From NCBI GenBank assembly GCA_963662155.1, contig OY759264.1:17807142-17871141 (forward strand): DNA of 64,000 nt. Reading direction: 5' to 3'. Both the position numbers and the translations under genes were made by a program. Origin of the DNA: Lamellibrachia columna. Its lineage: Eukaryota > Annelida > Polychaeta > Sabellida > Siboglinidae. The notes beneath the pieces are model-generated. The model had not been told where the DNA came from and searched no databases. It saw only the letters and a list, made by a program, of their open reading frames with translations. Below, piece after piece: positions 27,528 through 60,165 of this stretch (its first letter is position 1; the number at the start of each line of letters is the position of its first letter).

Positions 27528-27665
<138 letters not shown>

Positions 27666-28456: not shown

Positions 28457-28549
28457 TGTGAGCAGAACGATGAGAGGGATATCGATGGGGAGCACTGGCA
28501 GAACCTGGAACAGATGATGCAATCAGCAGAGACAGCAGAACCAGAAGAG
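28457..28549 (+). pseudogene. 3' part of the 228-nt exon, acceptor deleted, copy 2
   Basis: The last 93 nt of the exon and its GTGAGG donor remain, but the 159-bp deletion removed the acceptor and the first 135 nt. The breakpoint is at TACA shared by both sides. It cannot be spliced in as an internal exon from its own acceptor. Confidence 0.6.
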
Positions 28550-29332: not shown

Positions 29333-29368
29333 TATACCTCCTTCCATTATCTACATGGTGAGCTGGCG
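29333..29368 (+). CDS. Micro-exon candidate 1, duplicate in copy 2
   Basis: Identical to 21477-21512 including both splice borders. Confidence 0.45.
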
Positions 29369-33067: not shown

Positions 33068-33088
33068 AGTCATTTCCTGCATCGCCAA
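33068..33088 (+). CDS. Micro-exon candidate 2, duplicate in copy 2
   Basis: Identical to 25212-25232. Copy 3 lacks this part because of its internal deletion. Confidence 0.42.
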
Positions 33089-33622
33089 GTAAGTTTGTGT
33101 TTCATTAATTTGATACGACTCTTTTTCATATGATTTTATATAATGTCCACGAACGCATTAAGGCATGCACGGGAAATCTGTACCTAACTCCCATTTTCAC
33201 TCTAATGCGATCTATCGTAAACATATCAAATACCAACCACGACATGATATACACCAAAAGAAGCGCAAACATTCCTGAAATAACTAAGCAAAATAATGCA
33301 AAAAAAAAACTATTGTTATGGTCACACAATTTTCACGGAAAAACCTCGGGGTCATATTGTCATCGGCTCAATATTTCGAAAATTGGAATGCCCCTGGCGT
33401 GGTCTGATAATATTTTATTTGCGTAGCTCCCCTTCTAAAATCAATAAGTATGCCCCAATAAAGAATTCCACAGTAAGAAACCACACTACTGTCCATATAT
33501 TCGAGTGATTAGATCGCTTGAGAATGTTGAATTGTGAGTTGGCAAACGTACAAAAAAATTCTTCTTCTACTATGCTAGATTTCTCGAGGGAGAGAAATTT
33601 TGCATTGTTCGAGCATTAACAC

Positions 33623-35277
33623 ATAAAGGAAGTTAGTAAAGGGGAATGTATCATAATGGGAGATTTTAACCATGGACACATACAATGGAAATCTCTAGAG
33701 AGTATAGGGGGTGAGGACCAACAATTTCTATTTTTAATTCAGGAAAGTTTCCTTACTCAGCACGTGCTAGAACCAACCAGGGGAGAAAATGTATTAGATA
33801 TAGTTTTATCATCACAAAAAGAATTAGTGGACAATGTAAAAATATATGAGCCATTGGGTAACAGTGATCACAATCAAATACATTTTGACATCAATGTAAA
33901 ATCAGAAACTAAAAGTACAAAACGTATAGGAAAAACTTCCACAAAGGTAACTATAAAGATATGAGAAAATACTTAGCAAAGCTAGATTGGAATAACATGC
34001 TGATGAATAAGACCGCAATTGAATGTTGGAATATTCTAAAATATGAAATTGAGAGTATCATCGATAAATTTGTTCCCTTGAAAAAACGTTCTAGAAAACG
34101 GTCTAGACAGAAACACTTGTCAAAAGAAGCTATTAGAAAAATAGTATTTAAGCAAACTATGTGGAGGGTTTATAGGCGTACCAGAAAGGATGAAAACTAT
34201 GCAAATTACAAAGAGGCACTTAACCTAGCTACAACTGAAATTAGAAAATCTAACAGAACCTTTGAAAAAAATTGGCAGGTAATATAAAAAATGACAGCAA
34301 GAGTTTCTATGCTTATGTAAGGAGTAAACAGAAAGTTCGAGATAAGGTCGGACCACTGGAAAACAACAGGGGAAACATAATTTCAGACGGGTTTCTAATG
34401 GCAGAGGTCCTGAATGAGTATTTCAGCTCAGTTTTTACCACAGACTCCATTTACTAAATTTGAGGGCAATAAATCAGAACATTTAGGGTAGTTATTTGTA
34501 ACTCCTGAAATGATAGCAAAGAAAATTAAGAAGATGAAAGATAATAAATCACCTGGAGTTGATGGGATACCACCAAAACTGCTTAAGGAAAATGTTGCGC
34601 AAATTAGTACACCACTTGCTAAATTGTTTAATTTGTCACTAGAAGAAGGAATAATTCCTTCAAAATGGAAAGAAGCAAACATTACGCCGCTATTTAAGAA
34701 GGGATCATGCCAGAACATTACAGACCAGTGAGTTTAGCATCAGTTGTATGTAAATTACTCGAAACAATAATTAGAGACCACATGGTGGAATTCCTTGTAA
34801 AACATAAATTAATAAATACATCTCAACATGGGTTCCTAAAAGCAAGGTCATGTCTAACCAAACTCTTATGTTTTTTGGAAGAAATTACAAAGTGGGTAGA
34901 TGACGAGTCACCAGTGGATGTTGTCTACTTAGATTTTCAGAAAGCTTTCGATAAAGTGCCACTTCAAAGATTGTTACTTAAACTAAAAGCCCATGGTATA
35001 GGTAATGATGTAATCAACTGGATAGAAAAGTGGCTTACACACAGAAGACAGAGTGTAATAGTAGATGGTGAGATTTCAAACTGGAAATCTGTTTTGAGTG
35101 GGGTACCACAGGGATCAATATTAGGCCCTATATTGTTTTTAATATATATATATATATATATAAATGATTTGGAAGATGACATATCTAGCAACGTACTCAC
35201 ATTTGCAGATGACACAAAAGTATTCAGAAAGGGTACTAGTGATACAGATAAACAAAGTTTACAGGATGATCTGGATA
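33623..35277 (+). pseudogene. CR1-like LINE, 5' half, duplicate in copy 2
   Basis: Same as 25767-27421, with the same frameshifts and the same (TA)n enlargement, so it was duplicated after decay and not inserted separately. Confidence 0.88.
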
Positions 35278-35383
35278 AATATTCGTACGTGTTTATAATT
35301 AATTGTACTTCATGTTGGAATATTTTATCTACATATATTATTAAGCCACCATTGTTACTACTGCTCTTTCCTTGAGCAGTGCA

Positions 35384-35521
<138 letters not shown>

Positions 35522-36312
35522 GTGTAGCCTACTGATTTGATAGCTTTTGAATGTTGAATTGTGAGTTTTCATAACATATAGCAAAGCCCTGTTCTACCAT
35601 CATGCCAGTTGTTTACAGTGGTGGAAAAAATCATATCCAGATGGAGTTAGGTCTCTCACTATCTTTTCATCTGTGCTGGATGGTGATAGCCACATTTTAT
35701 TGATGACATCTAAATCAAATTTAAATATACAATGCTGCTGTACATTAATCGATGCACTGATCTGTGAATGCATAATATGTATGAAATGAATGTACTTTAT
35801 TTACAGTATATTTTGTAATCTAACCTATTTTTGAGAATTTACAGCAGCCATTCTAGATAAAATACATGGTTCTAATATAACTGACACATAGCCTTTTATT
35901 TATTGTTTTATGACATTATTAGTGTATCGTTTTCAGGATCTTTTGAAAATTAGGCCCATGAATCTACATAGACTAGCTAAGACTGGTTTAAGGAACAGTG
36001 CTGCTGTTGGATTATCTGGTAATAAATTTAAGTTTAGATGATAAAGTCCCTTCCTGAACATATAGTTTAAAGGGAAACTGCTGAGCCAATAGAGCATGTG
36101 GCTTGTGGCAGTAGCAGACTCGGAGACGATTCACGAGCCCACGGATCAGTAGTTATGTCGAACTCTGAAAGCGACAATGTTTCTTTTGACGTAAATTAAT
36201 GTTATAATTGTCATCATTTTAGCATGTTGCTTTCATCAAACTTTTTTTATTTAAAACCTGATGCATTTGTTAGTGTACACATAACACGAACTAACCTTGA
36301 TGTTTTTCTACA

Positions 36313-36405
36313 TGTGAGCAGAACGATGAGAGGGATATCGATGGGGAGCACTGGCAGAACCTGGAACAGATGATGCAATCAGCAGAGACAGCAGAACCAG
36401 AAGAG
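36313..36405 (+). pseudogene. 3' part of the 228-nt exon, acceptor deleted, copy 3
   Basis: Identical deletion to copy 2, showing that it predates the second duplication. Confidence 0.6.
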
Positions 36406-37188
36406 GTGAGGGTGTAGCTGTTCAACCTGTCTTTCTCGTTGTCCCAATATTGGTTTATCTGAAAGTGAAAAGGTTTATGAGAGTAGTTATAATTGAAACT
36501 GCACACGTACATGCATTTGTAAGAACGAACGCACGCACACACGGACAAACACACTCACATATTTGAAATATTTGTTTGTTCTATTAGTCCGGGAGGCAAG
36601 TTTCAAAAGAGGCCTAGAATGGGTTTAGTTCAACATCCACTACATAATTGGTTTGCCACTACACGAACCTCGGGGGTGTATCTGGAACATATCTAACCCT
36701 GAATGAATTGAGGCATCACTAACATTTTACAGCCATTTATCCATTGTGTGTATCAACCCAATTTTTTTCGGGGGAGGTGGAGAACATGATATTAAGATTT
36801 CTTTTGCTATATTTTCATCCGTGTCGCATGCCGATAGCCCACTATATGCGGTGACAGCTAAAGAGTGTGATTATTTAGGGGATTAGTCTCTGGTTGCACT
36901 GGTCGATCACTATTACGCTCTATTGTTGGACTGGTGTTACAACAGCCCCGTGAATCAATTGGATGGATAAATACTTTGTTTTCGGAAATGTTTTATCTTT
37001 CAGATGCTCGATTGATTATATATTGGACAGGGCTACAATGCTCTACTCTCATTATATTTGCGATTAAAGTATTTTTAATATTTCTATACAAAATGCTGTA
37101 TGTTACAGGATGAGTAAAAAATGTGATTCGTGTCTTAGCATCAATTTACTATTGATGAACACATAAACCTTTTTCTATTTGTTTGCAG

Positions 37189-37224
37189 TATACCTCCTTC
37201 CATTATCTACATGGTGAGCTGGCG
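37189..37224 (+). CDS. Micro-exon candidate 1, duplicate in copy 3
   Basis: Identical to 21477-21512 including both splice borders. Confidence 0.45.
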
Positions 37225-38975
37225 GTAAGTTTGTGTTTGATACAATTAATATAGCTCACAATCGGATGCTTTTCTAGATATGTGCACTAAGGAATTTCAC
37301 AAGTATTTCGTTGATCTCGCCTGGTGATAGCTAAGTTTCAGTAATGACAAATAAAACAAATGCACTCTTGATGATGTGATCAATGAGGGAATCGATCTTC
37401 TTTTGCACTACAGCCCGTGACTAAATCGGATGATGATGTATTTTGTTGTCGGAAGTGTTTTATTTTGAGATGCACTGGGATGAAATGCACTAGATCAGAG
37501 TGGACTGTATTGCTTTACACATCACAGGCCGATTGACTGGAACCAGATGTTATAATCGCGATCGAATGCAAAATAGACCACAACGTGCAGAACATATATT
37601 TTCTACTACCGCGAAATGACAGCATATATGCAGGTGGCGGTGTCCTTCTTGATACGAAGAGCACACTTTCAACTGCGGAAATGCCCCAATATGACACGAA
37701 GTGCGAAATCTGCCAGGGATAAATACACCTCAAAGATGATTCTGGTTGGTGAATATAACCGTCCTCCTAAGTCATCCGTGACATCACTACATGACCTGGA
37801 CAAATCGATATCGAAAGTGCATGCTGATCACCCGAATGCAGCTCTCGGATGGCGAAATATTTTGCTGTCGGAAGTGTGGTGGAGATCGCCAGCACTAGAA
37901 CCTAGTTTTGTCAGAATCCGTCTGCTAGAAACCGCATTACTGTCGATATACCCGAATTATTTTAAAGCTTGAAAATTATTAGCTGTGACTATTCCGTACA
38001 GTGAAGTAGCCAAATTTTGCAAGCATGCCACTTATTTTCGAGGGAGTTGGACAAAATCATATCTAGATGGATTTATTTTGCTCACCAACTTGTCATGCGT
38101 GTTACCAGTTGATAGCCAAGTTTCAGTGATGACAACTAAGTTACGTTTACGTTGTGATACATTAAGCGATCGGTCTTATTTCTCACTCGCCGAGCATTAA
38201 TACGCTCAATTGTAGTATTCTTGGTACTACAACCCCATGAATCAATCGGAAGGATAACTATTTTGTTTTCGGAAGTGTTTTCTTTTGGGGATTCACTGGG
38301 AATAAATGCTCTGGATTAGAGTGCTCCGGGCTGAGACGCATCACTGTCATGTTTATAACAATGGCATTGCTGAATATAGGTGAAGTAATCAACATCTTTA
38401 ACAGACTGAAACATGTGCATTACTGCCATGCAGTGTTTTCTAGAAATATGAATTTATGATTGACAAGAGAAAAACGAACTCACAATAGTGATTGCCAACC
38501 GCAAAAGCGTCAACGGGGATGACCACTATTGAGAACATGCTTGATTCACTGTACCCAGAAATTATCATCCCGGAAATCCAAATAGAATTTCGAAAGCCAT
38601 GGCCATCATATGGAACAGCTCAACTAGGAACCAACCGGTACGAACCAAAGTGAAGATTACTGCTAATATACTGGACTCATACCAGTGCATCCAGACCAGG
38701 AGGGCTCATAACAAGCTACGTAACATGCTACGTAAAGTTGTTGAAGGGCTAGTAGTCCTTATTTCATGCCATTTTTTGCCACGCCCACGAGCGGTATGCT
38801 GGACCCAAAGGTGGACGCCTACAACTTCTCCTTTCTCCCAAAGACGACTGTGGTGTGGAAATCCATACCAGACAATGTTTTCCTCACTGAATCGGTTGAT
38901 GTGTGTCGCAGCAGACTTTGCAGTGAGGAACACAATACGATACCACAATACGAGACAGTATACAGTGAAAACAAA

Positions 38976-42345: not shown

Positions 42346-42633
42346 AATAAATGCACTGGATCAGAGTGCTCTGGGCTGAGACGCAACACTGCCATGTTTA
42401 TAACCATGGCATTGCTGAATCTCGGTGAACAAATCAATATCTTTAACATACTAAACCATGTGTCATCGCGGAAATTCAAAGATAATTTTTACCACCCTAT
42501 GAGTATGAACCACGGCCATCATATGGAACAGCTCAACTAGGAACCAACCAGGAGTGGCAACGTATTAGATTTGTGCTTTGCAACATCCCCTGAACTCATA
42601 ACGAGCTACACTGCAGTACCTCGTAACAGCGAC
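42346..42633 (+). pseudogene. LINE endonuclease segment, left of the palindrome
   Basis: Codes NHGHHMEQLN, EPTRSGNVLDLCFATSP and ELITSYTAVPRNS in frame, the region just before the SDH motif of the EEP domain. The palindromic element interrupts it exactly at the SDH codons; the sequence resumes at 57666 (SDHDHISVIRSNTRTKQNS). Confidence 0.7.
42628..42633. repeat. Target-site duplication AGCGAC, left
   Basis: Directly abuts the left end of the palindrome and equals 57666-57671. Confidence 0.8.
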
Positions 42634-43040
42634 AGTAGTTAGTGGAGGTTTTTGGCACCCCCTAGTGCGGCGGTTACGCATGACTGACTTCAAAGGAAAT
42701 ACCCGTAATATCGCCCACCCACCGCTTCCGGTTGCGCGCGCAGCCAATCAGAGCGCCCCCTGACGGTTGCAGCCGTGCGCAGCGCCCCCTAGCGACTGGA
42801 GGAGGAACGAACATGGACCTAGTTACGTAGCCAATCAGAACGCCTCCTGAGCGCAGTGCCTTATGGGTAACCTAAGCGCCCCCTAGCGACTGGAGGAGGA
42901 GGAGGAACGAAAGATAACCAGTGGGTAACTTAAGCGCCCTCTAGGGACTGGAGGAGGAACGAACATTGACCTAGTTACATTTTACCGGAGGGTCAGTAAC
43001 CTAGTAAGGAGACGAGAACAAAACGCCCTAACGACTGGAG
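42634..43040. promoter_or_regulatory. GC-rich left end with CCAAT boxes and repeated GCGCCCCCTAG motifs
   Basis: Two CCAATCAG boxes (near 42744 and 42831) and five AGCGCCCYCTAG-like motifs (near 42659, 42752, 42781, 42875 and 42933). Several are followed by CGACTGGAGGAGGAACGA, a ~60-90-bp imperfect repeat. The reverse complement CCAGTCGCTAGGGGGCGCT resembles the core of CTCF sites. Promoter or insulator function is inference. Confidence 0.4.
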
Positions 43041-43758
43041 TTAACTGTAAGCCCAAGCGTTTATCCAGCTGTGAGCCATAGTGGGAGATCAAAGGATGCT
43101 AATCGGAACAATGTAGCAACGGAGCCGAGCTAATCAGCAACAATGTGGCAAGTACAATATCTATGTGGGACTGAGGCATGTTATAGCCAGTATATATGTA
43201 GTGGACATAAGACGTAATAAAACGAAAACTTGTAAATATAATGCGAAGATGTAATATATATTAAGTAGCCGACATGCATGGCTATAATATAACCGCTGGA
43301 CTATGGAAATCTGACCGTTCATTAAAGAAATGGTAGCAGGGGTGAAAAGTGACTATGTGTATAATATGCACACACGCAATGGGAACGAGAACTCAATACA
43401 AGACGGAAATATCAGTTCAAGCAAAATTTAATATATATGAAAACAACCCAACCGCTAATTCCACTATTCCAACACCTGCTTCCGGGACCAAAGTAAGTCG
43501 TATTCGCGTGCCGCCCAACTTTTTAACCGCGCGGTGGCTATGCGCTAGCCGCGTAATGTTTTCGCGCGAGTATCCGTGGTAACAGTAACCGCGATAGTGG
43601 ACATAGGAACAACTGCCCGTTAACAGCGGTCATTAATAGTATCATTAATAACTGAGATGAAAGAGTAAGTTAACAGTGGTCATTAACAGGGTAATTAATA
43701 ACTGAGATCAAAGGACCTAACGAGGAGATGAGAAACGAACAAAACACGATATCGTACT
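43041..43758. other. Left-arm unique region with a 77-codon ORF
   Basis: An ORF at 43349-43582 (plus; mirrored at 56717-56950, minus) is conserved between arms with one residue changed, but arm identity is that high everywhere, so it is no evidence of selection. No motif is recognised. 43620-43720 contains a direct repeat of GTTAACAGYGGTCATTAA. Confidence 0.4.
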
Positions 43759-44362
43759 ATATTTTCTTTATATGTAAATATTTAAAAATAATGCGCTTTT
43801 ACACTTTATCCATAACTCCTACAGTTTACCCACAATTCCTACAATTTACCCATAAGTCTCCTATTGAATAAGAGTACAAGGACATTTTATTAAATATTTG
43901 AAAATAATGACACAATATCGTCCACAAACGTTAGACAGAGGACTCTAAAGTCTCTTGCCATACCGACGTAAAGCTGACGTAAGCTATAAAAGTGTCAGGA
44001 CATGCAGCTGACGTATGCCGCACACACAACAATACCAAATAAGGACATGCAGCTGACGTAAACGGCATCAGACGCGTCGCGGAAAGTGTACTATCAGCAT
44101 ATTTTCGTTATATGTCAATATTTTTTAAATAATGCGCCTTTACACTTTACCCATTACTCCTACAGTTTACCCATAATTCCTTCAATTTACCCATAATTCC
44201 TACAATTTACCCAGCACATATATAGTGTAGTAATATTGTCCACAAACGTTAGACAGAGGACTCTAAAGTCTCTTGTCATACCGACGTACAGCTGACGAAA
44301 GCTATAAACGTGTCAGGACATGCTGCTGACGTAATCCGCATACAGAACAATACCAAATAAGG
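43759..44362. repeat. Left-arm direct repeat pair (43759-44044 and 44099-44362)
   Basis: Both contain ATATTTTC, short tandem TTTACCCATAATTCCTACAA words, TCCACAAACGTTAGACAGAG, ACTCTAAAGTCTCTTG, and CATGCNGCTGACGTA. Mirrored at 55935-56198 and 56254-56539. Confidence 0.75.
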
Positions 44363-44444
44363 TAGTGCACGCTATGTGTGCCAATATCAAAAGCCAGCAG
44401 GAGAACAACATTGTGGCAGCGATGACGGGAGTATGACGAGAAGC

Positions 44445-47400
44445 TGTGTGATATGTATGGAGACGTTCACCACCATGTGATATGTGTGAAGACATTTACC
44501 TCTGTGTGATATGTATGGATACATTTGACACCATGTGGTATGCATGGAGACATTGACTACCATGTGCCATGTATGGAAACATTGACCACCATGTGACATG
44601 CATGGAGACATTTACCGTTGTGTGATATGTATAGAGACATTGACCGCCATGTGACATGTATGGAGACATTTGACACCATGTGGTATGCATGGAGACATTG
44701 ACTGCCATATGATATGCATGGAGACATTGACTGCCATGTGACGTGCATGGAGACATTGACCGCTATGTAACATGTATGGAGACATTTGACACCATGTGGT
44801 ATGCATGGAGACATTGACTGCCATATGACTTGCATGGATACATTGAATGCCATGTAACGTGCATGGAGACATTGACCACCATGAAACATGCATGGGGACA
44901 TTTACAGTTGTGTGATATGTATGGAGACATTTGACACCATGTGACATGCATGGAGACATTTACCACTGTGTGATATGCGTGGAGACATTGACCACAATGT
45001 GACATGCATGGAGACATCGACTACTATGTGAAACGTATGGAGACATTTACCACTGTGTGATATGTATGGAGACGTTTACCACCATGTGATATGTGTGGAG
45101 ACATTTAACCCTGTGTGATATGTATGGAGACATTTGACACCATGTGATATGCGTGAAGACATTGACCCTCATGTGACATGCATGGAGACATTTACCACTG
45201 TGTGATATGTACGGAGACAATTTACACCATGTGATATGCATGGATACATTGACCGCCATGTAACATGCATGGTGACATTGAATGCCATGTAAAGTGCATG
45301 GAGACATTTCATACCATTTGATGTGCATGGAGACATTGACTACCATGTGACATGCATGGAGACATTGACCGCCATGTGGTATGCATGGAGACATTGACTG
45401 CCATGTGACATGCATAGAGACATTGAATGCCATGTAACGTGCATGGAGACATTGACCACCATGTGACATGCATGGGGACATTTACTGTTGTGTGATATGT
45501 ATGGAGACATTTGACACCATGTGACATGCATGGAGACATTTACCACTGTGTGATATGCGTGGAGATATTGACCACAATGTGACATGCATGGAGACATCGA
45601 CTGCTATGTGAAACGTATGGAGACATTTACCACTGTGTGATATGTATGGAGACGTTTACCACCATGTGATATGTGTGGAGACATTTAACCCTGTGTGATA
45701 TGTATGGAGACATTTGACACCATGTGATATGCGTGTATACATTGACCCTCATGTGACATGCGTGTAGACATTTACCACTGTGTGATATGCATGGAGACAT
45801 TTACCACTGTGTGATATGTACGGAGACATTTTACACCATGTGATATGCATGGATACATTGACCGTCATGTAACATGCATGGTGACATTGACCACCATATG
45901 ATATGCATGGAGACATTGACTACCATGTGACATGCATGGAGACATTGACTACCATGTGACATGTATGGAGACATTGACCGCCATGTGTCATGTATCGAGA
46001 AATTGACCGTCATGTGTCATGTATGGAGACATTTACCGCTGTGTGATATGTATGGAGACATGTACCACCATATGATATGTGTGGAGACATTTACGCCTGT
46101 GTGATATGTATGGAGACATTTGACATCATGTGATATGCGTGGAGACATTGACCGTCATGTGACATGCATGGAGACATTTACCACTGTGTGATATGTATGC
46201 AGACATTGACCGTCATATGGTATGCATGGAGACATTGACCACCATGTGACATGCATGGAGACATCGACTGCTATGTGACATGTATGGAGACATGTATGGA
46301 GACATTTACTGCTGTGTGATATGTATGGAGACGTTCACCACCATGTGATATGTGTGGAGACATTTACCCCTGTGTGATATATATGGAGACATTTGACACC
46401 ATGTGGTATGCATGAAGACATTGACTACCATGTGACGTGCCTGGAGACATTGACCGTCATGTGACATGTATGGAGACATTTACCGCTGTGTGATATGTAT
46501 GGAGACATTTGACACCATGTGACATGCATGGAGACATTTACCACTGTGTGATATGCGTGGAGACATTGACCACAATGTGACATGCATGGAGACATCGACT
46601 GCTATGTGACACGTATGGAGACATTTACCACTGTGTGATATGTATGGAGACGTTTACCACCATGTGATATGTGTGGAGACATTTAACCCTGTGTGATATG
46701 TATGGAGACATTTGACACCATGTGATATGCGTGTAGACATTGACCCTCATGTGACATGCGTGTAGACATTTACCACTGTGTGATATGCATGGAGACATTT
46801 ACCACTGTGTGATATGTACGGAGACATTTTACACCATGTGATATGCATGGATACATTGACCGTCATGTAACATGCATGGTGACATTGACCACCATAGGAT
46901 ATGCATGGAGACATTGACTACCATGTAACATGCATGGAGACATTGACTACCATGTGACATGTATGGAGACATTGACCGCCATGTGTCATGTATCGAGAAA
47001 TTGACCGTCATGTGTCATGTATGGAGACATTTACCGCTGTGTGATATGTATGGAGACATGTACCACCATGTGATATGTGTGGAGACATTTACGCCTGTGT
47101 GATATGTATGGAGACATTTGACATCATGTGATATGCGTGGAGACATTGACCGTCATGTGACATGCATGGAGACATTTACCACTGTGTGATATGTATGCAG
47201 ACATTGACCGTCATATGGTATGCATGGAGACATTGACCACCATGTGACATGCATGGAGACATCGACTGCTATGTGACATGTATGGAGACATGTATGGAGA
47301 CATTTACTGCTGTGTGATATGTATGGAGACGTTCACCACCATGTGATATGTGTGGAGACATTTACCCCTGTGTGATATATATGGAGACATTTGACACCAT

Positions 47401-47917
47401 GTGGTATGCATGAAGACATTGACTACCATGTGACGTGCCTGGAGACATTGACCGTCATGTGACATGCATGGAGACATTTACCGCTGTGTGATATGTATGG
47501 AGACATTTGACACCATGTGACATGCATGGAGACATTTACCACTGTGTGATATGCGTGGAGACATTGACCACAATGTGACATGCATGGAGACATCGACTGC
47601 TATGTGACACGTATGGAGACATTTACCGCTGTGTGATATGTATGGAGACATTTACCACCATGTGATATGTGTGGAGACATTTACCACTGTGTGATATGTA
47701 TGCAGACATTGACCGTCATATGGTATGCATGGAGACATTGACCACCATGTGACATGCATGGAGACATCGACTGCTATGTGACATGTATGGAGACATTTAC
47801 TGCTGTGTGATATGTATGGAGACGTTCACCACCATGTGATATGTGTGGAGACATTGACCCCTGTGTGATATATATGGAGACATTTGACACCATGTGGTAT
47901 GCATGACGACATTGACT
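44445..47917 (-). repeat. Minisatellite A, left arm: 29-bp unit, about 120 copies
   Basis: Unit pattern TGTGRYATGYATGGAGACATTKACYRCCA, 29 bp with rare 28-30-bp variants. Groups of units recur as larger blocks: 45831-46013 and 46829-47011 are 998 bp apart, and other segments 580 bp (20 units) apart. All frames of the minus strand are open for long stretches because the unit lacks stops on that strand. Confidence 0.93.
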
Positions 47918-49774
47918 GTACATGTGAGGAACCTTACATAGCACCAACTTAGCAATTGTACATGTGAGGAACCTTACATAGCACCAACTTGGCGATTGTA
48001 CATGGGGGAACGTTACATAGCACCAACTTAGCAATTGTACATGTGGGGAACCTTGCATAGCACCAACTTAGCGATTGTACATGCGGGGAACCTCGCATAG
48101 CACCAACTTAGCAATTGTACATGTGGGGAACCTTGCATAGCACTAACTTAGCAATTGTACATGGGGGAACCTTACATATCACCAACTTAGCAATTGTACA
48201 TGGGGGGAACCTTACATAGCACCAACTTAGCAGTTGTACATGTGGGGAACCTTACATAGCACCAACTTAGCGATTGTACATGTGAGGAACCTTACACAGC
48301 ACCAACTTAGCGATTGTACATGGGGGGAACCTCGCGTAGCACCAACTTAGCGATTGTACATGTGAGGAACCTTACATAGCACCAACTTAGCAATTGTACA
48401 TGGGGGAACCTCGCATAGCACCAACTTAGCAATTGTACATGTGAGGAACCTTACATAGCACCAACTTAGCAATTGTACACGGGGGGAACCTCGCATAGCA
48501 CCAACTTAGCAATTGTACATGTGAGGAACCTTACATAGCACCAACTTAGCAATTGTACATGTGAGGAACCTTACACAGCACCAACTTAGCGATTGTACTT
48601 GGGGGGGAACCTCGCGTAGCACCAACTTAGCGATTGTACATGTGAGGAACCTTACATAGCACCAACTTAGCAATTGTACATGGGGGAACCTCGCATAGCA
48701 CCAACTTAGCAATTGTACATGTGAGGAACCTTACATAGCACCAACTTAGCAATTGTACACGGGGGGAACCTCGCATAGCACCAACTTAGCAATTGTACAT
48801 GTGAGGAACCTTACATAGCACCGACTTAGCAATTGTACATGTGAGGAACGTTACACAGCACCAACTTAGCAATTGTACATGTGAGGAACCTTACATAGCA
48901 CCAACTTAGCAATTGTGAGGAACCTTACACAGCACCAACTTAGCGATTGTACATGGGGGGAACCTCGCGTAGCACCAACTTAGCGATTGTACATGTGGGG
49001 AACCTTACATAGCACCAACTTAGCAATTGTACATGGGGGAACCTCGCATAGCACCAACTTAGCAATTGTACATGTGAGGAACCTTACATAGCACCAACTT
49101 AGCAATTGTACATGTGAGGAACCTTACATAGCACCAACTTAGCAATTGTGAGGAACCTTACACAGCACCAACTTAGCGATTGTACATGGGGGAACCTCGC
49201 GTAGCACCAACTTAGCGATTGTACATGTGAGGAACCTTACATAGCACCAACTTAGCATTGGTACATGGGGGAACCTCGCATAGCACCAACTTAGCAATTG
49301 TACATGTGAGGAACCTTACATAGCACCAACTTAGCAATTGTACATGTGAGGAACCTTACATAGCACCAACTTAGCAATTGTACATGTGAGGAACCTTACA
49401 TAGCACCAACTTAGCAATTGTGAGGAACCTTACACAGCACCAACTTAGCGATTGTACATGGGGGGAACCTCGCGTAGCACCAACTTAGCGATTGTACATG
49501 TGAGGAATCTTACATAGCACCAACTTAGCATTGGTACATGGGGGAACCTCGCATAGCACCAACTTAGCAATTGTTCATGTGAGGAACCTTACATAGCACC
49601 AACTTAGCGATTGTACATGGGGGGAACGTTACATAACACCAACTTAGCAATTGTACAAGTGGGGAACCTCGCATAGCACCAACTTAGCGATTGTACATGT
49701 GGTGAACCTTACATAGCACCAACTTAGCAATTGTACATGGGAGGAACCTCGCATAGCACCAACGTAGCAATTGT
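47918..49774. repeat. Minisatellite B, left arm: 40-bp unit, about 46 copies
   Basis: Unit TAGCRATTGTACATGTGAGG plus AACCTTACATAGCACCAACT, 40 bp. Two main variants alternate (ATGTGAGGAACCTTACAT and ATGGGGGAACCTCGCAT), and some units lack TACATG. It joins array A at GACATTGACTGTACATGTGAGG without a spacer. Confidence 0.93.
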
Positions 49775-50074
49775 GATAATGTCTCCATCCTGCTTTGCTG
49801 TTTCTCACCATCTCAGCATACATTTATTTATTTTATGACACTGTCTCCAGCCTGCCTTGCTTTTTCTCAGCATCTCAGCATATATTTCTGCACTTTATGA
49901 CACTGTCTCTAGCCTGCCTTGCTCTGTCTCACCATCTCATACACTGTCACACGCAACTTGAAACAGGTGTTGTATTCTTGCTAGTGACACCCCTCTACAT
50001 ATGGACAAGCTCCATAGAGTAGTAGTGAGTCGAGTGTAGCCATTATCTTCTGGTTCCCACACCTCACCACCCCC
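49775..50074. other. Left inner core of the palindrome
   Basis: Non-repetitive sequence with two ~62-bp direct repeats of a CTTTATGACACTGTCTC/GCCTGCCTTGCT pattern. Mirrored at 50362-50671. The 75-codon ORF in it (49795-50022) is likewise mirrored and has no known domain. Confidence 0.6.
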
Positions 50075-50206
50075 CCATAGAGTAATGGTACAGTCGCCAG
50101 GGGCGCAGGGGCGCGCGCGATTACACACCTTTTCCGCGTAATACACCTTTTTCCTGTAATCGCGCGCGCCCCTGCGCCCCCTGGCGACTGTACCATTACT
50201 CTATGG
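50075..50206. repeat. Central hairpin: 50-bp GC-rich arms around a 31-bp loop
   Basis: CCATAGAGTAATGGTACAGT...GCGCGCGCGATTAC (50075-50124) is matched in inverted orientation by GTAATCGCGCGCGCC...ACTCTATGG (50156-50206) with one base length difference in a G-run. The loop contains TACACCTTTT twice. The stem also holds CGCCAGGGGGCGCAGG, similar to the motifs at the element ends. Confidence 0.9.
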
Positions 50207-50470
50207 TGGGGGTGGTGAGGTGTGGGAACCAGAAGATAATGGCTACACTCGACTCACTACTACTCTATGGAGCTTGTCCATATGTAGAGGGGAGTCACTA
50301 GCGAGAATACAACACCAAGCGTGCGTGGGGGTGGTCAGATGGCTATATTCCTCTCATTACTCTATGGTGGGGGTGGTGAGGTGTGGGAACTAGAAGATAA
50401 TGGCTACACTCGACTCACTACTACTCTATGGAGCTTGTCCATATGTAGAGGGGTGTCACTAGCAAGAATA
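50199..50470 (+). repeat. Right-core direct duplication, offset 161 bp
   Basis: CTATGGTGGGGGTGGTGAGG and the following ~110 bp occur at 50201 and again at 50362. The left arm has only one copy. The two copies differ (GGGGAGTCACTAGCGAG versus GGGGTGTCACTAGCAAG), so this is not a read-duplication error of one sequence. Confidence 0.85.
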
Positions 50471-50671
50471 CAACACCTGTTTCAAGTTGCGTGTGACAGT
50501 GTATGAGATGGTGAGACAGAGCAAGGCAGGCTAGAGACAGTGTCATAAAGTGCAGAAATATATGCAGAGATGCTGAGAAAAAGCAAGGCAGGCTGGAGAC
50601 AGTGTCATAAAATAAATAAATGTATGCTGAGATGGTGAGAAACAGCAAAGCAGGATGGAGACATTATCACA

Positions 50672-52447
50672 ATTGCTACGTTGGTGCTATGCGAGGTTCC
50701 TCTCATGTACAATTGCTAAGTTGGTGCTATGTAAGGTTCCCCCCATGTACAATCGCTAAGTTGGTGCTATGTAAGGTTCCTCACATGTACAATCGCTAAG
50801 TTGGTGCTGTGTAAGGTTCCTCACAATTGCTAAGTTGGTGCTATGTAAGGTTCCTCACATGTACAATTGCTAAGTTGGTGCTATGTAAGGTTCCTCACAT
50901 GTACAATTGCTAAGTTGGTGCTATGTAAGGTTCCTCACATGTACAATCGCTAAGTTGGTGCTACGCGAGGTTCCCCCCATGTACAATCGCTAAGTTGGTG
51001 CTGTGTAAGGTTCCTCATAATTGCTAAGTTGGTGCTATGTAAGGTTCCTCACATGTACAATTGCTAAGTTGGTGCTATGTAAGGTTCCTCACATGTACAA
51101 TTGCTAAGTTGGTGCTATGCGAGGTTCCCCCATGTACAATTGCTAAGTTGGTGCTATGTAAGGTTCCTCACATGTACAATCGCTAAGTTGGTGCTACGCG
51201 AGGTTCCCCCCATGTACAATCGCTAAGTTGGTGCTGTGTAAGGTTCCTCACAATTTCTAAGTTGGTGCTATGTAAGGTTCCTCACATGTACAATTGCTAA
51301 GTTGGTGCTGTGTAACGTTCCTCACATGTACAATTGCTAAGTCGGTGCTATGTAAGGTTCCTCACATGTACAATTGCTAAGTTGGTGCTATGCGAGGTTC
51401 CCCCATGTACAATTGCTAAGTTGGTGCTATGTAAGGTTCCTCACATGTACAATCGCTAAGTTGGTGCTACGCGAGGTTCCCCCCATGTACAATCGCTAAG
51501 TTGGTGCTGTGTAAGGTTCCTCACATGTACAATTGCTTAGTTGGTGCTATGTAAGGTTCCTCACATGTACAATTACTAAGTTGGTGCTATGCGAGGTTCC
51601 CCCCGTGTACAATTGCTAAGTTGGTGCTATGTAAGGTTCCTCACATGTACAATTGCTAAGTTGGTGCTATGCGAGGTTCCCCCATGTACAATTGCTAAGT
51701 TGGTGCTATGTAAGGTTCCTCACATGTACAATCGCTAAGTTGGTGCTACGCGAGGTTCCCCCCAGGAAAAAATCGCTAAGTTGGTGCTGTGTAAGGTTCC
51801 TCACATGTACAATTGCTAAGTTGGTGCTATGTAAGGTTCCTCACATGTACAATTGCTAAGTTGGTGCTATGCGAGGTTCCCCCCCGTGTACAATTGCTAA
51901 GTTGGTGCTATGTAAGGTTCCTCACATGTACAATTGCTAAGTTGGTGCTATGCGAGGTTCCCCCATGTTCAATTGCTAAGTTGGTGCTATGTAAGGTTCC
52001 TCACATGTACAATCGCTAAGTTGGTGCTACGCGAGGTTCCCCCCATGTACAATCGCTAAGTTGGTACTGTGTAAGGTTCCTCACATGTACAATCGCTAAG
52101 TTGGTGCTATGTAAGGTTCCCCACATGTACAACTGCTAAGTTGGTGCTATGTAAGGTTCCCCCCATGTACAATTGCTAAGTTGGTGATATGTAAGGTTCC
52201 CCCCATGTACAATTGCTAAGTTGGTGCTATGCAAGGTTCCCCACATGTACAATTGCTAAGTTGGTGCTATGCGAGGTTCCCCGCATGTACAATCGCTAAG
52301 TTGGTGCTATGCAAGGTTCCCCACATGTAAAATTGCTAAGTTGGTGCTATGTAAAGTTCCCCCATGTACAATCGCTAAGTTGGTGCTATGTAAGGTTCCT
52401 CACATGTACAATTGCTAAGTTGGTGCTATGTAAGGTTCCTCACATGT
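50672..52447. repeat. Minisatellite B, right arm
   Basis: Reverse complement of the left array B; about 76 bp shorter, with its own unit variants (for example AGGAAAAAATCGC near 51764). Confidence 0.93.
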
Positions 52448-55400
52448 ACAGTCAATGTCGTCATGCATACCACATGGTGTCAAATGTCTCCATATATATC
52501 ACACAGGGGTCAATGTCTCCACACATATCACATGGTGGTGAACGTCTCCATACATATCACACAGCAGTAAATGTCTCCATACATGTCACATAGCAGTCGA
52601 TGTCTCCATGCATGTCACATGGTGGTCAATGTCTCCATGCATACCATATGACGGTCAATGTCTGCATACATATCACACAGTGGTAAATGTCTCCACACAT
52701 ATCACATGTTGGTAAATGTCTCCATACATATCACACAGCGGTAAATGTCTCCATACATGACACATGACGGTCAATTTCTCGATACATGACACATGGCGGT
52801 CAATGTCTCCATACATGTCACATGGTAGTCAATGTCTCCATGCATGTTACATGGTAGTCAATGTCTCCATGCATATCCTATGGTGGTCAATGTCACCATG
52901 CATGTTACATGACGGTCAATGTATCCATGCATATCACATGGTGTAAAATGTATCCGTACATATCACACAGTGGTAAATGTCTCCATGCATATCACACAGT
53001 GGTAAATGTCTACACGCATGTCACATGAGGGTCAATGTCTACACGCATATCACATGGTGTCAAATGTCTCCATACATATCACACAGGGTTAAATGTCTCC
53101 ACACATATCACATGGTGGTAAACGTCTCCATACATATCACACAGTGGTAAATGTCTCCATACGTGTCACATAGCAGTCGATGTCTCCATGCATGTCACAT
53201 TGTGGTCAATGTCTCCACGCATATCACACAGTGGTAAATGTCTCCATGCATGTCACATGGTGTCAAATGTCTCCATACATATCAAACAGCTGTAAATGTC
53301 TCCATGCATGTCACATGACGGTCAATGTCTCCAGGCACGTCACATGGTAGTCAATGTCTTCATGCATACCACATGGTGTCAAATGTCTCCATATATATCA
53401 CACAGGGGTAAATGTCTCCACACATATCACATGGTGGTGAACGTCTCCATACATATCACACAGCAGTAAATGTCTCCATACATGTCTCCATACATGTCAC
53501 ATAGCAGTCGATGTCTCCATGCATGTCACATGGTGGTCAATGTCTCCATGCATACCATATGACGGTCAATGTCTGCATACATATCACACAGTGGTAAATG
53601 TCTCCATGCATGTCACATGACGGTCAATGTCTCCACGCATATCACATGATGTCAAATGTCTCCATACATATCACACAGGCGTAAATGTCTCCACACATAT
53701 CACATGGTGGTACATGTCTCCATACATATCACACAGCGGTAAATGTCTCCATACATGACACATGACGGTCAATTTCTCGATACATGACACATGGCGGTCA
53801 ATGTCTCCATACATGTCACATGGTAGTCAATGTCTCCATGCATGTTACATGGTAGTCAATGTCTCCATGCATATCCTATGGTGGTCAATGTCACCATGCA
53901 TGTTACATGACGGTCAATGTATCCATGCATATCACATGGTGTAAAATGTCTCCGTACATATCACACAGTGGTAAATGTCTCCATGCATATCACACAGTGG
54001 TAAATGTCTACACGCATGTCACATGAGGGTCAATGTCTACAGGCATATCACATGGTGTCAAATGTCTCCATACATATCACACAGGGTTAAATGTCTCCAC
54101 ACATATCACATGGTGGTAAACGTCTCCATACATATCACACAGTGGTAAATGTCTCCATACGTTTCACATAGCAGTCGATGTCTCCATGCATGTCACATTG
54201 TGGTCAATGTCTCCACGCATATCACACAGTGGTAAATGTCTCCATGCATGTCACATGGTGTCAAATGTCTCCATACATATCACACAACGGTAAATGTCCC
54301 CATGCATGTCACATGGTGGTCAATGTCTCCATGCACGTTACATGGCATTCAATGTCTCCATGCATGTCACATGGCAGTCAATGTCTCCATGCATACCACA
54401 TGGCGGTCAATGTCTCCATGCATGTCACATGGTAGTCAATGTCTCCATGCACATCAAATGGTATCAAATGTCTCCATGCAGGTTACATGGCATTCAATGT
54501 CACCATGCATGTTACATGGCGGTCAATGTATCCATGCATATCACATGGTGTAAATTGTCTCCGTACATATCACACAGTGGTAAATGTCTCCATGCATGTC
54601 ACACGAGGGTCAATGTCTACACACATATCACATGGTGTCAAATGTCTCCATACATATCACACAGGGTTAAATGTCTCCACACATATCACATGGTGGTAAA
54701 CGTCTCCATACATATCACACAGTGGTAAATGTCTCCATACGTTTCACATAGCAGTCGATGTCTCCATGCATGTCACATTGTGGTCAATGTCTCCACGCAT
54801 ATCACACAGTGGTAAATGTCTCCATGCATGTCACATCGTGGTCAATGTCTCCATGCACGTTACATGGCATTCAATGTCTCCATGCATGTCACATGGCAGT
54901 CAATGTCTCCATGCATACCACATGGCGGTCAATGTCTCCATACATGTCACATGGTAGTCAATGTCTCCATGCACATCAAATGGTATCAAATGTCTCCATG
55001 CACGTTACATGGCATTCAATGTCACCATGCATGTTACATGGCGGTCAATGTATCCATGCATATCACATTGTGTAAATTGTCTCCGTACATATCACACAGT
55101 GGTAAATGTCTCCATGCATGTCACATGAGGGTCAATGTCTTCACGCATATCACATGGTGTCAAATGTCTCCATACATATCACACAGGGTTAAATGTCTCC
55201 ACACATATCACATGGTGGTAAACGTCTCCATACATATCACACAGTGGTAAATGTCTCCATACGTGTCACATAGCAGTCGATGTCTCCATGCATGTCACAT
55301 TGTGGTCAATGTCTCCACGCATATCACACAGTGGTAAATGTCTCCATGCATGTCACATTGTGTCAAATGTCTCCATACATATCACACAACGGTAAATGTC

Positions 55401-55853
55401 CCCATGCATGTTTCATTGTGGTCAATGTCTCCATGCACGTTACATGGCATTCAATGTCTCCATGCATGTCATATGGCAGTCAATGTCTCCATGCATACCA
55501 CATGGTGTCAAATGTCTCCATACATGTTACATAGCGGTCAATGTCTCCATGCACGTCACATGGCAGTCAATGTCTCCATGCATATCATATGGCAGTCAAT
55601 GTCTCCATGCATACCACATGGTGTCAAATGTCTCCATACATGTCACATGGCGGTCAATGTCTCTATACATATCACACAACGGTAAATGTCTCCATGCATG
55701 TCACATGGTGGTCAATGTTTCCATACATGGCACATGGCAGTCAATGTCTCCATGCATACCACATGGTGTCAAATGTATCCATACATATCACACAGAGGTA
55801 AATGTCTTCACACATATCACATGGTGGTGAACGTCTCCATACATATCACACAG
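52448..55853 (+). repeat. Minisatellite A, right arm
   Basis: Reverse complement of the left array A. Relative to the left arm it has an extra 522 bp (18 units) near 54.2-54.8 kb and lacks about 590 bp near 52.6-52.8 kb. The 998-bp spacing (52764 and 53762) is also present. Confidence 0.93.
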
Positions 55854-57258
55854 CTTCTCGTCATACTCCCGTCATCGCTGCCACAATGTTGTTCTCCTGC
55901 TGGCTTTTGATATTGGCACACATAGCGTGCACTACCTTATTTGGTATTGTTCTGTATGCGGATTACGTCAGCAGCATGTCCTGACACGTTTATAGCTTTC
56001 GTCAGCTGTACGTCGGTATGACAAGATACTTTAGAGTCCTCTGTCTAACGTTTGTGGACAATATTACTACACTATATATGTGTGCTGGGTAAATTGTAGG
56101 AATTATGGGTAAATTGAAGGAATTATGGGTAAACTGTAGGAGTTATGGGTAAAGTGTAAAGGCGCATTATTTAAAAAATATTGACATATAACGAAAATAT
56201 GCTGATAGTACACTTTCCGCGACGCGTCTGATGCCGTTTACGTCAGCTGCATGTCCTTATTTGGTATTCTTGTGTGTGCGGCATACGTCAGCTGCATGTC
56301 CTGGCACGTTTATAGCTTACGTCAGCTTTACGTCGGTATGGCAAGAGACTTTAGAGTCCTCTGTCTAACGTTTGTGGACGATATTGTGTCATTATTTTCA
56401 AATATTTAATAAAATGTCCTTGTACTCTTATTCAATAGGAGACTTATGGGTAAATTGTAGGAATTATGGGTAAACTGTAGGAGTTATGGATAAAGTGTAA
56501 AAGCGCATTATTTTTAAATATTTACATATAAAGAAAATATAGTACGATATCGTGTTTTGTTCGTTTCTCATCTCCTCGTTAGGTCCTTTGATCTCAGTTA
56601 TTAATTACCTTGTTAATGACCACTGTTAACTTACTCTTTCATCTCAGTTATTAATGATACTATTAATGACCGCTGTTAACGGGCAGTTGTTCCTATGTCC
56701 ACTATCGCGGTTACTGTTACCACGGATAATCGCGCGAAAACATTACGCGGCTAGCGCATAGCCACCGCGCGGTTAAAAAGTTGGGCGGCACGCGAATACG
56801 ACTTACTTTGGTCCCGGAAGCAGGTGTTGGAATAGTGGAATTAGCGGTTGGGTTGTTTTCATATATATTAAATTTTGCTTGAACTGATATTTCCGTCTTG
56901 TATTGAGTTCTCGTTCCCATTGCGTGTGTGCATATTATACACATAGTCACTTTTCACCCCTGCTACCATTTCTTTAATGAACGGTCAGATTTCCATAGTC
57001 CAGCGGTTATATTATAGCTATGCATGTCGGCTACTTAATATATATTACATCTTCGCATTATATTTACAAGTTTTCGTTTTATTACGTCTTATGTCCACTA
57101 CATATATACTGGCTATAACATGCCTCAGTCCCACGTAGATATTGTACTTGCCACATTGTTGCTGATTAGCTCGGCTCCGTTGCTACATTGTTCCGATTAG
57201 CATCCTTTGATCTCCCACTATGGCTCACAGCTGGATAAACGCTTGGGCTTACAGTTAA
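55854..57258. other. Right-arm unique region, mirror of 43041-44444
   Basis: Contains the mirrored direct repeat pair and 77-codon ORF. Small differences to the left arm include AATGACCAC/GTTAATTACC variants near 56600 and a G-to-A change near 56723. Confidence 0.7.
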
Positions 57259-57665
57259 CTCCAGTCGTTAGGGCGTTTAGTTCTCGTCTCCTTACTAGGT
57301 TACTGACCCTCCGGTAAAATGTAACTAGGTCAATGTTCGTTCCTCCTCCAGTCCCTAGAGGGCGCTAAAGTTACCCACTGGTTATCTTTCGTTCCTCCTC
57401 CTCCTCCAGTCGCTAGGGGGCGCTTAGGTTACCCATAAGGCACTGCGCTCAGGAGGCGTTCTGATTGGCTACGTAACTAGGTCCATGTTCGTTCCTCCTC
57501 CAGTCGCTAGGGGGCGCTGCGCACGGCTGCAACCGTCAGGGGGCGCTCTGATTGGCTGCGCGCGCAACCGGAAGCGGTGGGTGGGCGATATTACGGGTAT
57601 TTCCTTTGAAGTCAGTCATGCGTAACCGCCGCACTAGGGGGTGCCAAAAACCTCCACTAACTACT
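57259..57665. promoter_or_regulatory. GC-rich right end, mirror of 42634-43040
   Basis: The same CCAAT boxes (as ATTGG) and CTAGGGGGCGCT motifs in inverted order, nearly identical to the left end. Confidence 0.4.
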
Positions 57666-57671
57666 AGCGAC
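57666..57671. repeat. Target-site duplication AGCGAC, right
   Basis: Directly abuts the right end of the palindrome and equals 42628-42633. Confidence 0.8.
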
Positions 57672-58140: not shown

Positions 58141-58600
58141 ACCTTAAAATTTATTAGTTGTGATTATTCCGTAGAGTAAAGTAGCCCAATTTCACAAGCA
58201 TGGCAGTTTTGTTCGAGGGATTTGGACAAAATCATATCTAGATAGATTTATTTTGCTCACCAACTTGTCACATGTGTTACCTGTTGATGGCCTAGTTTCA
58301 GTGATGACAACTAAGTCACGTTTACTCTCTATGTTGTGATCAATTAAGCGATCGGTCTTATTTCCCACTGGCTGAGCATTAATACGCTCAATTGTAATAG
58401 TCGTGGCACTACAGCCCCACGAATCAATCGGAAGGATAAATATTTTGTTTTCGGAAGTGTTTTATTTTGTGGAATCACTAGGAATAAATGCATTGGAGCA
58501 GAGTGTTCTGGGCTGAGACCTATCATATTTATAACCATGACATTGCTGAATCTCGGTGAACTAATCAACATCTTTAACATACTGAACAATGTGTCATCGC
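58141..58600 (-). pseudogene. Antisense LINE endonuclease remnant
   Basis: Homologous to 22260-22620 and 41690-41970. Contains the CGGAAGTGTTTTATTTTG and AAATGCAYTGGA motifs. Confidence 0.55.
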
Positions 58601-58890
58601 GGAAGTCCAAAGACCACCCTTTGAATATGAACCATGGCCTTCATATGGAACAGCTCAGCTAGGAACCAACAGGGAGTGGCAACATATTAGAGTTGTGCTT
58701 TGCAACATCCCCTGAACTCACAACGAACTGCACTACAGGCCCACGTAACAGCGACCACGACCATATAATTGTCATTCGTAGCAACAACAGGACCAAGCAG
58801 AACAGCAAGAAGAATCGAGTGATCAATCTCTTCAACAAGGTTGATTGGGAAGGAGTTAATGATGCCCCGAGGAAGGCAGAATGGTGAACT
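58601..58890 (+). pseudogene. LINE endonuclease segment, second copy; related empty site
   Basis: Codes LDLCFATSPELTTNC-like sequence (here ELCFATSPELTTNCTTGPRN), then SDHDHIIVIRSNNRTKQNS. At 58755 it carries AACAGCGACCACGACC uninterrupted, the related empty site of the palindrome insertion. Confidence 0.75.
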
Positions 58891-60165
58891 AATAAACAGC
58901 TTTAACACACTGAACCATGTGTCATCGCGGAAGTCCAAAGAGAATTTCGATCACCCTTTGAGAATGAACCATGGCCATCATATGGAACAGCTCAACTAGG
59001 AACCAACCGGGAGTGGCAACATATTAGAATTGTGCTTTGCACCATCCCCTGAACTCACAACGAGCTACCCCACATCAGCACCAGCGACCACGACCATATA
59101 ATTGTCATTCGCAGAAACACCAGGACCAAGCAGATCAGCAAGAAGAAAACAGTCATCAATCTCTTCAACAAGGCTGATTGTGAAGGAGTTAATGATTCCC
59201 CGATAAAGGCAGAAGTAAGCTTATTTGTCAACTGCTCTGACACTAACACAATGTAGGCAAACTGACAATTTTTCAAGAAGGCAATCCTGGATAGTACCGT
59301 CACATTCATCGCAATAAAACATGTATCAGATAGGTACCAGTTAACCTGGATGAACAAGTACGAAGTCGCCTCAACAGGACGAAAGAGTGAGATTACAACA
59401 GTGTAAAGAAGTTGAACAAGGGAAGGTACTGTAAGCAGAATGCTGCGGAAGAAGACATATTGGAGTCTGAGAGTCACTTACTGGCTCTACGCTAGCAACA
59501 TCATAGGAAATTTTGAAAAAGATAGTCAATCCAAATGACTACGTCAATACATAAATGGACTGCGACATGTACGACAGGCTACGGAGTGAATACCCTAGTT
59601 GCAGACGACAAGGTGGCAACTGACCCCTACAGCAGGCGAATATTTTGAACGAAAAATTCAAGGCCAACATTTTAAAGAACAATTCTGCACTGTCTTCTCG
59701 CGAGAACATAAATCTAAGCAGCCTTTTCCGTAAAGGCGCACTCAACCATCCATTGAGCTACTATCCTATATCATTCACCTCTATCAGTTGCAAGGAAGCA
59801 GGGTTTTAACGCAGACGTTACTGTTTGACCAAGTTGATCAGATAATTTAGCATGCTCGCTAAGCAAGCACTCACCAATCGAAGTGACTTGCTGATCATAT
59901 GATTCAGCCAGCTTATTAAGTAGGTACTCACAAATCGACATAGCCAACTTGGATTTCTCAAGTGCCAAACCATCGGTTCATTAAAAAGTTCAAGTACTAC
60001 AACTTGGACAACAACATCATTGGGTGGATCGAGGCCTTTTTAACACGCGACAGCGAATTGTGGTTAACGGATTTACCTCACCGGTAGCTCCGGTCATCTC
60101 AGGTGTGCTACGCAAAACAATATTAGGACCCATTTTTTCCTTTTATTCATCAACGACATTTGACA
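58891..60165 (+). pseudogene. LINE endonuclease end, linker and RT start
   Basis: After a third copy of the SDHDHI segment (59077) the frames code KKTVINLFNKADCEGVND, an inter-domain linker with ILDSTVTFIAIKHV, then decayed RT motifs (LSSLFRKGALNHPLSYYPIS, KKFKYYNLDNNIIGWIEAFL, RIVVNGFTSP, ISGV...TILGPI). Many stops and shifts. Its RT ends where the micro-exon cassette begins at 60168. Confidence 0.75.

Follow-up and report, generated by a model that had tools for sequence, protein, structure and literature searches.

Positions 42634–57665 of the window analysed here, a 64-kb stretch of the Lamellibrachia columna genome (C4:17807142–17871141 in an 880-Mb assembly of 30 contigs; contigs are given as C and loci as L followed by a number), form a 15,032-bp palindrome that entered its present site as one piece and created a 6-bp target duplication. 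Comparison of its ends and centre with other loci indicates that it is very probably a gene-less, non-autonomous member of a palindromic family that moves by the Maverick/Polinton machinery of the same genome, and integration by a Maverick integrase acting in trans appears highly likely.

The extent of the palindrome was determined by gapped alignment of its halves, in which the left arm (42634–50125) and the inverted right arm (50155–57665), each of ∼7.5 kb, are 98.4% identical over 6,930 aligned bases. Its termini are AGTAGTTAGTGG...CCACTAACTACT, so that it starts with AGTAGT and ends with ACTACT. From tip to centre, each arm consists of ∼1.8 kb of subterminal sequence, an array of 29-bp units (117–119 per arm), an array of 40-bp units (45–47 per arm) and an inner stem, which measures 351 bp in the left arm vs 514 bp in the right; a 162-bp segment near the centre of the right arm (50207–50368) is absent from the left arm. 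The features of the insertion and its surroundings are as follows.

42628–42633, no strand: left target-site duplication AGCGAC (flank comparison)
42634–50125, plus strand: left arm (gapped alignment)
42634–43023, plus strand: outer 390 bp, beginning AGTAGT; 93.6–94.4% identical to the left (protease-side) ends of L010 and L009 and 92.6% to the one-armed L011
43023–43438, plus strand: subterminal part resembling Maverick right ends; ∼84% identical to the right ends of L009 and L013
43482–44446, plus strand: arm-specific region, containing a ∼290-bp repeat twice (copies 81% alike); its first 279 bp served as the query for other palindromes
44447–47916, plus strand: 29-bp tandem array of the left arm, ∼119 units (repeat analysis)
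47917–49774, plus strand: 40-bp tandem array of the left arm, ∼47 units (repeat analysis)
49775–50125, plus strand: inner stem of the left arm (gapped alignment)
50126–50154, no strand: 29-nt loop (gapped alignment and other centres)
50155–57665, minus strand: right arm (gapped alignment)
50155–50668, minus strand: inner stem of the right arm (gapped alignment)
50669–52450, minus strand: 40-bp tandem array of the right arm, ∼45 units (repeat analysis)
52451–55850, minus strand: 29-bp tandem array of the right arm, ∼117 units (repeat analysis)
55851–57665, minus strand: subterminal and terminal part of the right arm, ending ACTACT (gapped alignment)
57666–57671, no strand: right target-site duplication AGCGAC (flank comparison)
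58460–58881, plus strand: uninterrupted copy of the flanking repeat, first empty-site comparison (alignment)
58883–59431, plus strand: uninterrupted copy of the flanking repeat, second empty-site comparison (alignment)

Outside the arrays, the two arms diverge equally in their outer part (0.66%; 12/1813) and their inner part (0.57%; 2/351; Fisher p=1.0, the inner stretch being short), and divergence is higher inside the 29-bp array (1.57%; 47/2993) and the 40-bp array (2.83%; 50/1768). Because the units of the 29-bp array are only ∼77.5% alike within one arm, whereas the arrays of the two arms line up collinearly at 97–98%, we conclude that the arms were copied whole after the arrays had formed. 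The palindrome has no open reading frame (ORF) of at least 150 aa, the longest (144 aa) being frames through the 29-bp array. No match was obtained when the palindrome was compared with the rest of the window (blastn, E 0.01) or with Rfam, or when its ends were compared with viral contigs, bacterial and archaeal genome contigs and phages. As a separate observation, the window contains seven copies of AGGGGGCGC, a sequence that we take to be similar to the CTCF core motif, and all of them lie within the palindrome (42753, 42782, 42876, 50174, 57415, 57509 and 57538), with three copies per arm near the ends and one at the centre.

AGCGAC adjoins the palindrome on both sides, and as the bases beyond it do not match in either direction, the duplication measures exactly 6 bp. 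When the flanks were joined across one AGCGAC, they aligned without a break to 58883–59431 (87% over 555 bp) and 58460–58881 (86% over 437 bp), uninterrupted copies in which a single AGCGAC is found at 59083 and 58750, respectively. The interrupted repeat is LINE-like, a label that comes from its translation, without a family match, and from what we presume to be an endonuclease motif. A clean empty site with one AGCGAC excludes a local inverted duplication, and the palindrome is beyond chance because a 15-kb mirror comes together with an exact duplication whose empty site can be demonstrated and because the same architecture recurs elsewhere in the genome. Most of this had been proposed in an original prediction made from the letters of the window: a ∼15-kb palindrome of two ∼7.5-kb inverted arms, non-coding and lacking a polymerase, ATPase, protease or integrase of its own, with AGCGAC exactly repeated outside both ends, and arising by transposition rather than by inverted duplication of local DNA. 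The structure, the duplication and the transpositional origin were borne out, and the absence of coding capacity is in line with the ORF analysis; the two empty sites are real, and their positions, predicted as 58755 and 59077, shift to those given above.

We used the outer 401 bp of the palindrome as a genome query, a search that the original prediction had suggested, and found copies on many contigs that share its ends and have duplicated flanking 6-mers. At least 53 matches were listed (40 scored of 1,293 first-look candidates), and 20 genome stretches around such matches, 9.9-kb loci among them, were taken for study. AGTAGT is the start of all 48 other mapped ends (20 and 28 ends in two sets); the mapping relied on similarity to known ends and would miss differing end types. 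No end match was obtained for 7 of 32 stretches (L034, L035, L036, L043, L044, L049 and L050) or for L032, and the outer end of L026 is outside the end count. Seventeen copies have two mapped ends (the window, C5:32188859–32197001, C13:5065532–5083512, C6:49633002–49644970 and 13 more; this leaves out C8:31.3 Mb, C27, C4:43.9 Mb, C3:10.7 Mb and C7:27.7 Mb, whose ends were unmatched). A perfect 6-bp duplication flanks 16 of the 17, including an uninformative TATATA within a TA repeat at C2:13291071, and C14:42792542 matches at 5 of 6 positions. Two of these copies are gene-bearing, at C13 and, in shortened form, at C5. Vertebrate Mavericks most often terminate in (AGT)2//(ACT)2, other published end motifs include (AG)3//(CT)3, intact elements have 6-bp duplications, lengths are 12.7–24.6 kb and inverted repeats span 46–1,447 bp (PMC8097293). 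A random 6-mer would match one of three published terminus types with a chance of 3/4096.

Relatives with AGTAGT...ACTACT ends carry genes that identify them as Maverick-type elements. Pfam matches include an integrase with rve (4.2e-15) and Chromo (4.5e-7) domains, Adeno_IVa2 (2.2e-5), a NADAR domain in a frame of one relative (4.8e-19) and, in the polymerase frame, PolB PF03175 at 1.1e-3, which is under its gathering score. When protease-like, capsid-like, integrase, ATPase and polymerase frames were scored, 13 of the 9.9-kb loci had at least two kinds of gene motif (L009, L010, L012, L014, L017, L018 and L022–L028), and further gene-motif pieces were present in L011, L013, L015 and L016. 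The protease-like and capsid-like frames, presumably the corresponding Maverick proteins, had no Pfam match at E 1e-3. At C13, the complete Maverick spans 17,981 bp. A protein search with the integrase gave 6,759 relatives at E 1e-3 among 8,000 candidates scored, and this genome alone has at least 122 scored matches (2,343 first-look candidates), of which 100 are stop-free within the matched 327 aa and 22 contain a stop; thus, helpers could exist. Autonomous relatives with the same ends and with pPolB/integrase had been suggested as a search target; gene-bearing relatives that share the ends do have a rve and Chromo integrase, an Adeno_IVa2-like ATPase and a PolB-like frame, and the idea that a Polinton-type integrase mobilises the palindrome in trans gains from these relatives, from the shared ends and from the 6-bp duplications; mobilisation itself is what we infer from them.

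Several further observations concern these relatives. The element at C5:32188859–32197001 (L009 860–9002) is of Maverick type, 8.1 kb long and flanked by a 6-bp duplication. It retains a NADAR frame as well as protease-like and capsid-like motifs; the motif scan revealed no integrase, ATPase or polymerase motif, and it is a second kind of non-autonomous element. At C4:7.26 Mb, the Maverick-type copies L015 and L016 are separated by 8.9 kb, lie on one strand and share the flank GGCGTC; their integrases score equally, and they are probably a duplication. Integrase pairs of equal score also lie 30–150 kb apart at C15:37780963/37820821, C1:58107983/58257992 and C3:29604396/29635936, which suggests duplications that include Mavericks. 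The records of two integrases found in the protein search, P0173 and P0179 (71% identical), name an endosymbiotic bacterium of the tubeworm Escarpia laminata as their source; they are probably host DNA of a marine worm.

The palindrome belongs to a family with a common centre. A 279-bp arm-specific query gave at least 40 listed matches at 97–100% identity (668 first-look candidates); of those listed, 30 form 15 convergent pairs, including that of the window and one wide pair of ∼30 kb, and 10 are unpaired. A 106-bp query over the loop and both stems gave at least 40 scored centres (255 first-look candidates), and 34 of the 40 scored match all 106 bp at 88–100% identity, the window being included in both counts. 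Five other centres (L031/L032, L065, L066, L067 and L069) have exactly the same 29-nt loop, and the copy at C2:6.26 Mb matches it at 27 of 29 positions. Among the 17 two-ended copies, a palindromic centre was seen in 9 (the window, C2:6.26, C9:14.2, C8:36.5, C3:11.2, C1:14.07, C4:13.1, C2:13.3 and C7:27.2 Mb), with centre sampling leaving out C9:1.69, C1:21.2, C14:42.8 and C8:47.0 Mb; the copy at C6:49.6 Mb is an imperfect palindrome with ∼1.7 kb unpaired mid-element. As a control, an ungapped centre finder scored the window's own centre at only 63% because its stem has single-base indels, and the window's centre rests on the gapped alignment instead. Because the centres read have one loop in common, we conclude that the palindrome probably arose once, at a short GC-rich inverted repeat around the loop.

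The copy at C2:6.26 Mb has halves of 7,276 and 7,289 bp that are 99.93% identical over 7,263 aligned bases; it has no ORF >167 aa, and its interior resembles the window's arm only in parts. The 15 two-ended copies other than the gene-bearing ones at C13 and C5 have a median length of 14.9 kb (interquartile range 14.1–15.4 kb; range 10.2–31.7 kb). Gene motifs were absent from the three palindromes read through (that of the window, by its ORF list, L029/L030 and L019/L020); the read-through copies among the 15 are the window, C2:6.26 Mb and C6:49.6 Mb, and the others were sampled at their ends and partly at their centres. The predicted new giant foldback family is thus supported by copies on many contigs with the same ends, centre and duplications, and no description of palindromic, gene-less, non-autonomous Mavericks was found among the open-licence papers listed in our searches.

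Comparison of the outer ends revealed both a high similarity between the two arms of a copy and an apparent exchange of sequence with Mavericks. Left and right outer ends were 99.6–100% identical over 503–655 aligned bp in 10 copies, and ends of different palindrome copies were as little as ∼70% alike. In the window's arm, positions 60–360 are 95–100% identical to the left end of L009 and positions 360–780 are 83–93% identical to Maverick right ends, and the outer end is 95% identical over 260 bp to the Maverick ends L012, L015 and L016. The end of the window's palindrome therefore looks like a chimera of Maverick left and right ends. Because the arms are >99% identical there, the chimeric end is present on both, and the most parsimonious route would be for a single captured end to have been copied across to the opposite arm. 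The sister palindrome L031 is 93–100% identical to the window's arm at 420–960 and 53–92% before 360. In a tree of 260 bp (no support values shown), palindrome-type ends are interspersed among those of Mavericks at several points: the window lies near L012, L015 and L016, L019–L021 near L024, L031 with L061, L033 (a row of only 114 bp) near the right end of L009, and L011 near L009 and L010.

This last element, L011 (C4:35177148), has one arm. It opens with a Maverick left end that includes a portion of the protease-like frame (722–726 bp; 97–98% identical to eight Maverick-type loci) and switches, within 1–2 bases of the loop edge, to the loop and one arm, which was traced for 6.1 kb (best piece 96.5% identity); its right end was not found within the stretch examined. 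L011 may represent the ancestral type that snapped back, or it may be a recombinant.

These observations can be brought together in a model in which a Maverick integrase would recognise the ends in trans and insert linear DNA. The protein-primed polymerase of the Maverick would probably copy the element from its (AGT)2 ends by strand displacement, and the displaced strand would pair with itself as a ∼7.5-kb hairpin closed by the 29-nt loop. Each time such a hairpin is copied or repaired, both arms would become equal again, and one captured Maverick end could show up on both. To our knowledge, the replication mode of Mavericks is known only by inference from gene content, and we give protein-primed strand-displacement copying with a hairpin intermediate an even chance. 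Adenovirus initiates protein-primed replication with sliding back, and by analogy the terminal trinucleotide repeat of the palindrome fits such an initiation. The similar length of palindromes and Mavericks suggests packaging in Maverick particles but proves nothing, and we regard packaging as unlikely; the source consulted states that no Maverick particles have been observed (PMC8097293). Equally tentative, and doubtful as a whole, is the picture of a heritable satellite of a virus-like element, in which a gene-less hairpin genome would be replicated by the Maverick polymerase and packaged by the Maverick, its arrays would hold it at a Maverick-like length, and it would re-equip itself with the current Maverick's ends through the hairpin.

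Several points weigh against the interpretation that the palindromes move by Maverick machinery and equalise their arms through a hairpin. Identity between left and right ends is lower at C14:42.8 Mb (97–98%) and C8:47.0 Mb (99.0–99.4%), both over 350 bp, and at C6:49.6 Mb (97.8–99.4%, in pieces), and chromosomal gene conversion could be another source of arm identity. The outermost 60 bp of the window's arm are only 73–85% alike to the four Maverick ends compared, and the closest Maverick ends, at 95% over 260 bp, point to no particular direct helper. In the 260-bp tree, 12 palindrome-type ends group together in a separate clade that includes no sampled Maverick. One of five sampled midpoints (C2:25.6 Mb/L068) had no palindromic centre in the sampled 1 kb. 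The absence of genes covers only the three copies read through, and in the C27 copy a protease-like motif (L036, C27:20570–21370) occupies the place expected for the right end, with no end match there; the copy may retain the remnant of a gene or be equipped with a Maverick end. The two longest copies, of 22 and 32 kb, probably contain nested insertions. Finally, all of this comes from sequence, and neither transposition, a hairpin nor extrachromosomal DNA was observed.

One alternative explanation is that a Maverick integrase mobilises the palindrome, but that the arms grew stepwise and were kept alike by chromosomal gene conversion without a hairpin. There is a precedent in Galileo, whose inverted repeats are proposed to have expanded by recruiting internal sequence, with conversion, and the same passage mentions, with reference to a 2007 review, that Polinton inverted repeats have been reported to expand (PMC3573991); the unequal array copy numbers of the window's two arms also favour it. 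However, stepwise growth does not readily account for equal divergence at tip and centre (12/1813 vs 2/351, with the short inner stretch noted above), for a loop that is shared among six other centres with two mismatches in only one of them, or for the near-identity of left and right ends in 10 copies. We consider this alternative possible, although less probable than not.

A second possibility is that each palindrome is a dead by-product, a one-off defective product of Maverick replication, with no self-perpetuating lineage. Adenovirus is known to give rise to palindromic (symmetric) recombinants. Similarly, snapback defective genomes are described for AAV (PMC8235507). However, independent events would give unlike loops, whereas the centres read have one loop and the neighbouring stem in common, and 34 scored centres match across the loop. 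The palindrome thus seems to have been inherited and multiplied, and one-off origins are improbable.

More improbable still is that the palindrome belongs to the foldbacks of a different superfamily (MULE, P/Galileo or IS3EU/GingerRoot) and that its likeness to Mavericks is convergent. Tetris and similar foldbacks typically have long arms containing tandem repeats (PMC4079207), but 16 of 17 copies here have a 6-bp duplication, vs 8–10 bp in Tetris and 7 bp in Galileo, the ends are AGTAGT..ACTACT, vs TA..TA in IS3EU (PMC10045372), and the outer 390 bp are close to the ends of gene-bearing Maverick-type elements. Least probable of all is a local inverted duplication or an assembly artefact, since, although long palindromes are error-prone in assemblies, the flanks differ by side, the empty site is clean, the arms differ from each other and the same structure is found elsewhere with other duplications.

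The interpretation that the palindrome works through Mavericks can also be assessed against known systems. It resembles Mavericks/Polintons in its (AGT)2//(ACT)2 ends, its exact 6-bp duplication, its length within the published range (PMC8097293) and an outer 390 bp near those of this genome's gene-bearing elements. In contrast, it has no recognisable genes (pPolB, ATPase, protease, capsid or integrase) and, with no ORF of at least 150 aa, is not an autonomous Maverick; its arms of 7.5 kb far exceed the inverted repeats published for Mavericks (PMC8097293), its interior consists of tandem arrays and the whole element is one mirror. Because it lacks two defining features of Mavericks, the genes and the inverted-repeat length, we classify it as a non-autonomous palindromic relative that would work through them.

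The Drosophila FB element is a foldback. Among foldbacks, Tetris (PMC4079207) and Galileo (PMC3573991) share with the palindrome very long inverted arms with tandem arrays, and Tetris is also non-coding; however, the duplication is 8–10 bp in Tetris, which is of Mutator type, and 7 bp in Galileo, of the P superfamily, and the palindrome differs from foldbacks in its Maverick ends, its putative Maverick helper and a middle domain of almost nothing (29 nt). IS3EU/GingerRoot has a 6-bp duplication, but its termini are mostly TA..TA, unlike AG..CT here (PMC10045372). With snapback genomes of AAV (PMC8235507), as with the symmetric recombinants of adenovirus mentioned above, the palindrome has in common a mirror genome, one type of end and a dependence on a helper, which here is presumed; unlike them, it is chromosomal and multi-copy, has one common loop and is integrated with a target duplication.

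Palindromes that seemingly use Maverick ends alone would show which cis signals are sufficient for multiplication, and their folding makes the strand-displacement model testable, in that full-length hairpins should be detectable. The palindrome also forms a single link between foldback elements, arrays resembling satellites and virus-like elements.

Elsewhere in the window, positions 20597–38975 form a tandem duplication with a period of 7,856 bp, in which 20597–31119 and 28453–38975 are 99.97% identical, long TG runs included; this is either a very recent duplication or an assembly error.

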